Assembly (NCBI GenBank): GCA_963920665.1
Contig: OY987265.1
Location: 44,397,001 to 44,461,000, forward strand
Source of the DNA: Straminergon stramineum
Lineage: Eukaryota > Streptophyta > Bryopsida > Hypnales > Calliergonaceae
Direction of reading: 5' to 3'
Length of the DNA stretch: 64,000 nt
The translations under genes were made by a program, and so were the position numbers. Within the stretch, counting starts at the first letter, position 1. Each line of letters opens with the position of its first letter. The notes beneath the pieces were generated by a model. The model saw nothing but the letters and a program-made list of their open reading frames with translations, had not been told where the DNA came from and searched no databases. Shown piece after piece: positions 41,272 through 48,133 of this stretch.

Positions 41272-44200
41272 ATGACGGACGCAGTGTCTGAGAACATGGG
41301 AGATGAGCAATTCATCGCTAATGTGAGTGCTGGATTAGCTCTCTACGGTGTAGTAGTTGGTCGAGATGGTCAGAAACATGAAAAACCCAGAAGGCAGGTG
41401 CTTCGCATGCCTGCTGACTGCAAACTGAAGGCCCCGTCTCAGGAATATATTGTTCGAAGCGGACTAGCTACCGATTTATCAACAAGTGATCGGTTCTTTG
41501 AGACTGTGAGCGAGTCTGGCTGGAGTTTTGCTCTTAAACTAGCTGGGCTGGGTGGATTGGGCTTTATTGCTGGAGGTGCGATTGATGTGGATGGAGCAGC
41601 CCAAAAGCTATCAAAGCCTGGAGGGTTCGTCAGTCGGTTTACGAAGGAGGTGTGGAAAATGGAATGTCATTACGTTCCTCGAGCTTCCTTTCGGATTCAT
41701 AACTCACAGATGTGTCTTAGCAAAGAGGCTTTAGAAGACGTTCGCCGTTTACAGACACTGGGACAAGCAAAAACGTTTCTTCACACTTATGGATCTCATG
41801 TTCCTGATCGTGAGTACCATGTTGGAGGGATGTTGCTTCTTGGTGCGGGTGTCAGGTCAAGTGGCGGTACTGAGATTTTGACCCTCATCGAAACTGCAAG
41901 CCGACAGCTGCCTGGGATTACGGCTGGCATTTTTGTGCCTCAGGTCGGTGGAGCCAAAGCAAGTGTTAAAGCCGAGAAGTTGCAAACAAGCACAGCATGG
42001 AGCAAGGATGAGTCTTCTGACATGTTTATGAAAGCGTACGTCAGAGCCTTGGGCCCCTGTACTGCTGCTACTGATGAATTTGTGCAAAAGCTCGCTTCAG
42101 ATAGATCCACCTGGTTCATCGTTGACATCAATGAAGGTGCGGTCCTTCTATCAATCTGGGAGCTTGTGGGAAGGGAAGCCAAGGGAAACGACCTTCGAAG
42201 TCAGATGAAACTTCTCGATACAGCTTGGCAAATATCACGCTCACTTGCTTTGTATCATGATCCGATGATTTCGCCCGAGTTGCTAGATGAATTAAAATGC
42301 ATGAAGAAAGAACAGTTGCTTCAGCAGATGCAATGTTGCGTACTTGCGGAATTGTACGGGGATGAAGCTTCTGTTCCTGAGGCGCATTCGCTGCAGCCAC
42401 TAGATATTGCGAAAAAACTTCATAAAATACACCTTTCAGCAACATCCAGCGATGTTTTCAAGAAAGTGGATCACGACGTTGGAGCACTTTTGTTTAAAGT
42501 TCCAGCATTTGAAGAATTGGTGACTTATGTTGCACAATCAACTGTTGAAGGCATGGACGCAGCAAAGCGAGTGTTAAGAGCGATTCTAAATATAGATTTA
42601 CAGGAGGCGCTGAAGAAGGAAGGGATCACTTTGTCTAGCCCAATCCTGGAAATGCTTGAATTGCAAGACAAGCATGAAGAATTTGCCCCCTTGGCAGAGC
42701 CAGTACCACCTGCTGAGCTGCCTCGCGTGCTTGAAAGCATTGTTGAAAGTTTTCTATCATCGCCGGAGGACACATCACTTCATGCACCTTTCAGTGAAGC
42801 TGTGGAAAAGGTCATCAAAGCGTGCATAAGTAAATACCGTTGTGAGAAAGTTATAAAGGTGGTCAGGAACTTTGGTTTCGATGAGCATGGGATTTTCACA
42901 GGTAATTCCTTAACAAAGCACTATGTCAAGGGTATGATTACAGATTTCGTTGACAGTCTCCAACAACCATACCAGCCGGTGCCATTGCCCACTTCAGGTA
43001 CCGTTTTACTCTAGACAGACTTTGAATATATTGCACGAAGTCTTGAGAGTACTGAATAGTTTATGGATACTGAGTATACGATGTTGAGTGTTGTCCAATT
43101 CCCGAATCCAAACGAGAGAGTATGGATATTGATTACATTGTTTTGTGATATTATTTTATTGGTTCACATAATTGACTGCAATGTGATTTGTTCAAACATA
43201 GTTTAGAGGTCATTGGAATAATTGGTGTCATAACATCTGAAAAGGCAAATTGAATTAAATGGCAGCAGAGCCGACACATAATATTAGAATCAAGAATCAA
43301 GGTCCGTTTAGCAAACTTCATGTCGAGTTCTTATGTGAAACTGAAAAGTCGTTTTGAATAACTATTGCAGGTATTAAATACACAGTGGCACCTTACCGAT
43401 GGCCCTCCAAAAGTTGTTACTCATATAATTGTGATATAGTTGTTGACCGGTCTTTGGAGAGAAACGATGTTCATGAGAAAATGATTGATTGTATAAGACA
43501 CAGGGTCGATCCATTCTCTCCACCCGTTACAGAGGTAGAAGCTGCCTTCGATTTTTCTGACAATTGGGGCGAAGACGATGCTGGATTTGGAGGGGAGGGT
43601 GAAGATAGCTTTGGCTCTGACACCTCTCAATCTGGAGGCCACAACAGTATAGTTAAAGGAAATTTTGGCATTTCATCTCCCTTTCTCTTGTTGGCACAAA
43701 TCATGAGGAAATCTGATCTCGCTTTTCAAATGGCTTTGAGCAAGCTATTGCTGGAACAGAGGATTTCGGTACCCCTTGTGCTTCCACAAAATGGGTCCAG
43801 GTTAGGTCATATCCTGGAATCGCTTCGATATGTGGAAGTGAAGACAACCAATCAGAAAATGGTGTCAATTTATGATGACAATGCTCTCCCCCGTGTAATC
43901 TTTGCCTCGCGAAGGAGGGACCTCCGACTACGTGTGACTGCCGCGATGGCAAGTGAAGTTTTAGGGTGCCACTTTGTGAGTCAATATTGCAACGGAGAGC
44001 TCGAAAATGGTCCAGTTCTTGAGTTAGGGGTTGGATTCTATCCTAATACTCAACCAGGTCAGCATCTACCATGTCTTGCATTTTGCATTTGGGGTGATTT
44101 AAAACCACTTACAAAAGTTGTCAGACAACTTGGAGATATCGTTATTTTAGAGTGTGACAACGACAATCAAAAAGTGCCAATTGAAGGTCTAGGCTCAAGC

Positions 44201-47200: not shown

Positions 47201-48133
47201 AGAGAATTGCTCAAATTTTGGGAAAGTCATAAGCCTTGGGAATCCTTTTTGAAGAGTGTGAATATTGCTTTGAACCATGCAGCAGTGGCTGCAGAAACTG
47301 CTTACGAGAACTCTGGATTGACAAACACCAGGTTCAAAATACCTGGACTGGAGCCTTCTAGGTCCAAAAGAGCGGGGCTGGAACATTCTGGGTTGAAACT
47401 CTTCTTGGATACACTTCAAGATCAGTTACATTCAAACGTCTCCAAAGATTTGGCAAGCGCAATATCCTCTCTGAGTGCTGACGTTTATGACTTCTGCAAT
47501 CTTGATTACAGTGCCATTGAAAAGGAAATCATAATCAGCATGGACGATGCAGAATTTATGCCCCAGCTCGACACTGCGTTTAAGAAAGAGATAATAGAGG
47601 GCGTACGAATCAAATTGGTGGACTGGAGCAAGGGGGGCGCTCAACCAAGGTGTCAAGAGGCATGTCCCAAGTGCCATCTTACATGCTACAAAGCAGCCGT
47701 ACATCGGGGCCTACACGACACACTCCACCAACCCAAAGGGCTTGTTGGAATAACGTTGAAAGCAAAGAAATACAGTGAATTGGATAGCCAGTTGTCTTGC
47801 ACATCATGTTCCAGAGCTGTTTCTGAGAGCATGAGATGGGAGAAGTCAGAAGACCAACGCTCATTTTGGCGTAGCAAGTGGGCTAAATACAAAGATTTTA
47901 GCAAGTACTACCCAAGTTGGGAAACACCGAGCGATGCTCAAGGTCAGTGTGCAAGTGTGCGTGAGTACATTTTCTACAATCATCAAGCTGGTATTGTGAG
48001 GAAATTCTCAGGCTCTAAGATCTGTACTCAAATTCCACTTGAGTACAATCATGACCCAAAGGAGCTCCGCATAGAGCTTGAAAACATTCTCAAGAAGCAT
48101 ATCAAGTTTGAAGACTCTCGAACTTTCATTTGA
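41272..48133 (+). CDS. MACPF-like / VLIG-type very large GTPase fusion (2 exons)
   Basis: Exons 41272-42997 and 43371-48133 join in phase 1 (CAG/GTACCG ... TTGCAG/GT) to encode 2162 residues; the second exon alone has no ATG near its start. Residues 173-186 (YGSH...HVGG) match the MACPF signature Y-G-T/S-H-x-GG, after a Gly/Ala-rich hydrophobic stretch around 82-103, so the N-terminal 330 or so residues look perforin-like. A helical linker follows to about 575. Residues 630-665 are acidic and Gly/Ser-rich. The rest matches the VLIG (interferon-induced very large GTPase) type: P-loop GLQSSGKS at 1143-1150 (Lys1149), switch Thr1169 (TRGV), DTEG at 1191-1194, an atypical G4-like RSID at 1269-1272, then a long helical region. 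A C-terminal cluster (Cys2003, 2007, 2010, 2014; His2011, 2020, 2024, 2028; a Cys pair near 2055) probably binds zinc. VLIGs are linked to immunity in vertebrates; a defence role here is inference. The GTPase call is strong, the MACPF call rests on motif and context. Confidence 0.85.
42998..43370 (+). other. intron separating the MACPF-like and VLIG parts
   Basis: A 373-bp phase-1 GT-AG intron. If it is retained, translation continues for five more codons and stops at TAG 43012-43014, giving a free-standing MACPF-like protein of about 580 residues. AT-rich, without other signals. Confidence 0.75.

Follow-up and report, generated by a model that had tools for sequence, protein, structure and literature searches.

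A spliced gene with two parts

The stretch of DNA considered here (the window) comprises 64,000 nucleotides of the moss Straminergon stramineum (assembly GCA_963920665.1, contig OY987265.1, positions 44,397,001 to 44,461,000 of the forward strand) and carries on its plus strand a spliced gene of at least two exons, the joined frame of which encodes 2162 residues. The C-terminal half of this protein is a giant GTPase of the VLIG type, and its N-terminal region is predicted to adopt the fold of the MACPF (perforin-type) proteins. An earlier note, made from the letters of the window alone, had proposed such a single protein as a fusion in a plant, with membrane attack or vacuole lysis as its plausible joint function. 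Both the identities of the domains and their reading in one frame are supported by our analysis, and the pairing is indeed present in a plant, but that description is too narrow, as the pairing is also found in oomycetes, rotifers, an amoebozoan and vertebrates. The gene and the main features of its GTPase half are as follows, in window coordinates; homologues are designated by P numbers throughout.

41272..42997, plus strand: exon 1, an open frame from the ATG to the GT donor, encoding residues 1-575 and the first base of codon 576; homologues P0001, P0002, P0006 and P0024
42262..42996, plus strand: linker, residues 331-575, perhaps helical, with 58 of 228 aligned positions identical to P0006; helices appear in a low-confidence model only
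42998..43370, plus strand: intron, GT...AG, 373 bases, phase 1, read across by P0001
43371..48133, plus strand: exon 2, the VLIG half, including the stop codon
44516..45544, plus strand: VLIG/URGCP-type GTPase domain PF25683 (Pfam, E 1.2e-51, 176.1 bits, cut-off 55)
45071..45097, plus strand: P-loop GLQSSGKST, residues 1143-1151, most columns near-invariant in alignment A2
45215..45226, plus strand: G3 motif DTEG, residues 1191-1194, near-invariant in alignment A3
47651..47728, plus strand: C-terminal Cys/His cluster CxxxCPxCxxxC...H...H...H, residues 2003-2028, also seen in the consensus of the family alignments A2 and A3

The junction at 42997/43371 given in the earlier note stands, and its phase is 1. 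Exon 1 ends with G42997 and is directly followed by GT, an AG precedes 43371, and the joined frame is free of stops before 48133. P0001 (658 amino acids (aa), from a contig of 2090 bases) is 80% identical to the window protein and crosses the junction without interruption (...PTPG/LKHSEAPY..., the slash marking the junction); its source label, 'lgn', presumably denotes the Logan assemblies. P0024 (2020 aa, from a contig of 6618 bases) contains both the MACPF-like and the VLIG parts; its identity with another MACPF-VLIG gene of this genome, the second copy L004 on C5, is 75-79%. Judging from their protein sequences and the sizes of their contigs, P0001 and P0024 appear to be spliced transcripts.

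If the two halves were instead separate genes, a MACPF-like gene would end near 43014 and a VLIG gene would start after 43371. Exon 1 read onward does meet a stop 17 bases into the intron, an in-frame ATG lies about 110 bases into exon 2, and P0002 represents the same unspliced reading, continuing into the intron like unspliced DNA and ending at the same TVLL. However, both parts are in one frame in P0001 and P0024, the Sphagnum jensenii gene model P0006 can be aligned with almost the whole of the window protein (9-2150 with 1-2105, 36% identity in BLASTP), L004 keeps the same order, and homologues conserve the exon 2 residues upstream of the first ATG of that exon. The halves therefore do not look like the separate genes that the earlier note had allowed for.

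In a genome-wide search with PF25683 the window locus scores 179.7 bits, and the exon 2 protein also gives weak Pfam matches to the RHD3, dynamin and GBP models. The P-loop, a CTRG motif from residue 1168, DTEG and the Cys/His cluster, which may bind metal, are prominent in the family alignments A2 and A3. On re-reading the sequence we find the P-loop, DTEG and Cys/His cluster, as well as the Y173-G-S-H and G185-G186 of exon 1, where the earlier note had placed them. GVIN1, VLIG-1 and URGCP have a G domain of the same family (PF25683) as the moss protein. The URGCP middle domain PF25496, which Pfam calls in the animal members P0070, P0102, P0119, P0086 and P0065, is a point of difference, as it is not called by Pfam in the moss exon 2 protein or in P0006; it appears to be characteristic of the animal branch and not of the entire VLIG family.

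A predicted MACPF fold at the N terminus

The features of the N-terminal region are as follows.

41296..42246, plus strand: MACPF-like domain, residues ~9-325, from the structural model, Foldseek and VIA matches and profile matches
41521..41637, plus strand: candidate first transmembrane-hairpin segment, residues 84-122, putatively assigned from its position between model elements
41788..41829, plus strand: MACPF signature Y173-G-S-H-V ... G185-G186 in exon 1; H176 and the G185-G186 pair do not vary across the 17 rows of alignment A4
41875..42021, plus strand: candidate second transmembrane-hairpin segment, residues 202-250, putatively assigned in the same way

The AlphaFold2 (AF2) model of residues 1-349 has a predicted local distance difference test score (pLDDT) of 82.5 and a predicted template modelling score (pTM) of 0.79, and matches MACPF structures, astrotactin-2 among them, in Foldseek and VIA; the fold match is specific. 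GNIP1Aa, Mpf2Ba1, C6, C8, C9, MPEG1 and astrotactin-2 are MACPF proteins. For the MACPF-like region of the earlier note, modelling thus predicts a MACPF fold, over residues ~9-325. In sequence profile comparisons, the domain profile ranks pleurotolysin B first in the PDB (E 0.022), with C8 alpha at 0.15 and TgPLP1 at 0.38, and fragments of two homologues, P0038 and P0070, pass the Pfam MACPF cut-off from sequence alone. None of the PDB profile searches with the N-terminal region gave a match at E 0.001; in one of them HIV gp41 constructs slightly outscore pleurotolysin B, and the profile of alignment A1 gave a single PDB match, which we judge to be chance. AF2 run with three close sequences yielded a useless model (pLDDT 41.8).

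The window protein also fits the form [YF]-G-[ST]-H-x(n)-G-G, which we take to be the MACPF signature. The best conserved columns of the family alignments include F169, S175-H176, G185-G186, W281 and W296, and the S-H and G-G columns coincide with this signature; A4 holds 17 of 23 homologue fragments. The related pattern [FY][GHN]SH[VAIL] is present in 41 of 48 VLIG proteins that bear the domain.

Distribution and history of the pairing

In the moss genome, where the window is C3:44397001-44461000, five PF25683 matches are found, three of them above the cut-off and two, on C2 and C1, below it. Some 1.5 kb ahead of each of the three matches above the cut-off, and on its strand, lies a MACPF-like stretch. 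The second copy, L004 (C5:2492000-2501900), has DTMG in place of DTEG, which perhaps alters GTP hydrolysis. The third, L005 (C6:13604000-13613900), is read as many short frames, with CTEG and DTMG replacing CTRG and DTEG, and may be decaying or intron-rich. Pfam MACPF gave no matches in six frames of this genome; as this search goes exon by exon, it does not show ordinary plant MACPF genes to be missing.

Beyond the moss we sampled 120 VLIG family proteins, those listed of 307. In BLASTP with window residues 1-575, 44 of the 120 match at E<=1e-3 with overlap of residues 1-349 (E-values refer to a set of 122 proteins), while a 45th match, P0008, covers residues 374-569 only. The positive taxa include Sphagnum, Saprolegnia, Achlya, Phytophthora, rotifers and Pelomyxa, as well as sturgeon, frogs and birds, the last three with proteins of the GVIN1-like kind. 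A hidden Markov model (HMM) built without P0001, P0002 and P0060 finds the domain in 48 of the 120, including partial matches in P0036 and P0060, a count that is partly circular as most of the 48 sequences built the model (P0002, P0036 and P0060 were likewise left out of A3). The same partial circularity applies to a split by G-domain position: in 62 proteins the G-domain match begins no earlier than residue 900, and 46 of these carry the domain, as do 2 of the other 58. A search with the whole spliced protein, by way of words from residues 1-575, gave none of 7987 candidates at E<=0.001; it missed P0006 and P0024, both relatives by BLASTP, and its counts are therefore lower bounds. No relative was confirmed in the bacterial/archaeal and viral collections scanned with a 200-aa piece of the GTPase.

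A G-domain tree, built from the window protein and 78 of the 120, and a MACPF-domain tree of 46 rows, both midpoint-rooted for drawing, set most animals apart from plants, oomycetes, rotifers and Pelomyxa. In the former the window protein falls in a group of 26 rows with Sphagnum and Ceratopteris (support 97/97), and in the latter with Sphagnum in a group of four rows (support 100/98). Pairwise distances of the two domains across 45 proteins correlate at 0.81, a value reached in none of 999 permutations, and the histories of the two domains are similar. Because both trees agree and the distances correlate, we conclude that the MACPF-VLIG arrangement is old in the family, although this sample does not date it to the family's origin; and since water moulds, rotifers, an amoeba and vertebrates all have it, it gives the impression of an ancient arrangement that has been overlooked, not of a plant oddity. 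The long branch (1.1) on which the MACPF domains of the window protein and P0001 lie might suggest that a stray perforin gene was joined to a VLIG gene recently and in mosses only, but this reading runs against the parallel histories and against the occurrence of the domain ahead of the GTPase in VLIG proteins from distantly related eukaryotes. As a separate observation, the MACPF-VLIG proteins P0030, P0032 and P0035 of rotifers group with oomycetes and Pelomyxa, away from other animals, in both trees, and gene transfer might lie behind this.

Among individual relatives, the amoebozoan P0038, a Pelomyxa schiedti protein named 'up-regulator of cell proliferation', has the same order of parts (window 11-2134 with 346-2482) and differs in about 345 additional N-terminal residues. 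Precomputed Pfam annotation gives PF01823 for P0038 and P0070 only, of the 120 listed, so that a hint of the pairing was already in the databases. Three GVIN1-like proteins, from sturgeon (P0102), frog (P0086) and bird (P0119), have the same N-terminal domain as the moss protein, at about residues 160-590. MACPF and VLIG domains are each known; a description of the two joined in a conserved VLIG architecture we did not find among the literature matches listed, a set with few subscription journals.

Other parts precede the GTPase elsewhere in the family. In Sphagnum jensenii P0020 (1463 aa) the VLIG GTPase is preceded by a protein kinase and by a weak match to DUF1221 (18 bits, cut-off 25), a class 3 lipase occupies this place in P0053 and in rotifer P0057 and P0058, and fish P0065 has an AIG1 GTPase as its N-terminal part. 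Plant proteins with DUF1221 and a kinase are called MLKL-like, and the N-terminal part of P0020 would then be a second cell-death module on the VLIG chassis. These domain orders fit a GTPase chassis that stays constant and N-terminal modules that can be exchanged.

Proposed mode of action and alternatives

To our knowledge, the VLIG/GVIN proteins are the least understood of the interferon-inducible GTPases. We think it somewhat probable that the moss gene encodes a VLIG (GVIN/URGCP) giant GTPase whose N-terminal MACPF domain inserts into a membrane following GTP-controlled assembly there. GBPs, like GVIN1, are reported to assemble on membranes. In this model a GTP cue would cause the G domains to pair and the protein to assemble on a membrane, which would line up the MACPF domains next to one another as an arc or ring; the two hairpins of each would then insert and open or damage a membrane, either that of an intracellular microbe or that of the compartment around it. 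We favour this mechanism because of the predicted fold, the invariant GG pair and the coats that GVIN1 is reported to form on cytosolic bacteria; a role in defence may be suggested. A MACPF domain kept from mosses to vertebrates would provide a testable mechanism, a GTP-controlled pore or ring, and mosses are tractable organisms in which to ask what the protein does.

Comparison with known systems places the moss protein apart in several respects. Perforin-2/MPEG1, perforin and complement C6-C9 are secreted or lumenal, whereas no signal peptide is evident by eye in the moss protein, which is probably cytosolic. Pleurotolysin B, a fungal MACPF pore former, acts with a lipid-binding partner that is a separate protein, whereas the partner of the moss MACPF domain is a GTPase on the same chain. 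MACP2, CAD1 and NSL1 are plant MACPF proteins, and we know of no GTPase partner for any of the three. GVIN1 has been reported to form a coat on cytosolic bacteria, and for the tests of human GVIN1 in cells the third open reading frame (ORF), which encodes 1,808 aa, was cloned (PMC11974893). In the main text of that report the terms MACPF, perforin and pore do not occur (PMC11974893). The 1,808-aa ORF probably lacks the MACPF-like domain, and studies on this shortened ORF may miss a part.

Several observations weigh against the proposed mechanism. The structural likeness is at the level of the fold only (TM score by query length 0.25-0.46, identity 9-16%, among the 50 matches listed). Of the two profile checks suggested in the earlier note, Pfam calls the VLIG G domain (PF25683) in the window protein but not MACPF (PF01823), which it calls in fragments of P0038 and P0070; it leaves MACPF uncalled in 5 of 7 homologue fragments of one scan and 12 of 17 of another, and local Pfam does not call it in P0038 and P0070 at full length. 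The candidate hairpin segments of the window, tested as stretches of 41 and 52 residues, are not above shuffles for amphipathicity (fractions 0.50 and 0.27), and across the family 0.05 is reached by only 5 of the 37 first hairpins and 4 of the 45 second ones, both in a crude test that had no known pore former as a control. The first hairpin is only 11-20 residues long in eight of 45 rows (P0033, P0044, P0047, P0050, P0052, P0059, P0080 and P0100), and not every member can therefore be a standard pore former; the Saprolegnia and Achlya proteins among these (P0033, P0044, P0047, P0050, P0052 and P0059; 11-19 residues) probably cannot make a standard pore, judging from these lengths. Finally, since the 1,808-aa GVIN1 ORF forms coats yet probably lacks the domain, coat formation may not need it.

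The main alternative is that the N-terminal domain, though still of the MACPF fold, no longer forms pores and instead provides a platform, for oligomerisation or for docking to membranes, by which the VLIG GTPases are arranged into a coat. We regard this as quite possible, if on the doubtful side. It would accommodate window hairpins that are no more amphipathic than shuffles, the short first hairpins, the reported coat formation by GVIN1 (PMC11974893), and the match to astrotactin-2, a MACPF protein that is not known to us as a pore former. However, most rows retain both hairpin segments (the first of 35-42 residues in 33 of 45, the second of 46-57 in 43 of 45), with Gly/Ser/Thr/Ala/Asn/Gln shares mostly of 0.4-0.65, and the GG pair is invariant in A4.

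Two separate genes are very unlikely, and we reject this reading on P0001, P0024, P0006, the second copy and the conserved start of exon 2. A fusion confined to mosses is rejected as highly improbable, being already contradicted by the pairing in distant eukaryotes and by the parallel domain histories. That the MACPF resemblance is due to chance or is an artefact of the structure predictor, as the empty three-sequence model, the silence of Pfam on the window protein and the want of a PDB profile match at E 0.001 could suggest, we likewise reject as scarcely credible, given the Pfam-positive homologue fragments, the rank of pleurotolysin B among PDB chains and the specific fold match.

Returning to GTP-controlled membrane insertion, a wider and more tentative proposal, which we hold with low confidence, is that VLIG/GVIN GTPases began in early eukaryotes as GTP-fired intracellular perforins, the GTPase building a ring and the MACPF domain opening the membrane. 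This design would have been kept in mosses, oomycetes, rotifers, amoebae and many vertebrates, while others would have swapped the N terminus for a lipase or kinase and the human GVIN1 ORF would probably have lost its MACPF domain.

Elsewhere in the window, many short frames on the minus strand at 54191-62448 resemble, by eye, a multi-exon helical-repeat (importin-like) gene, two pieces of which matched no family when tested. On the plus strand at 13720-15908, there are two frames, each matching one half of a channel of the bestrophin type (PF25539, E 3e-37 and 3e-36).
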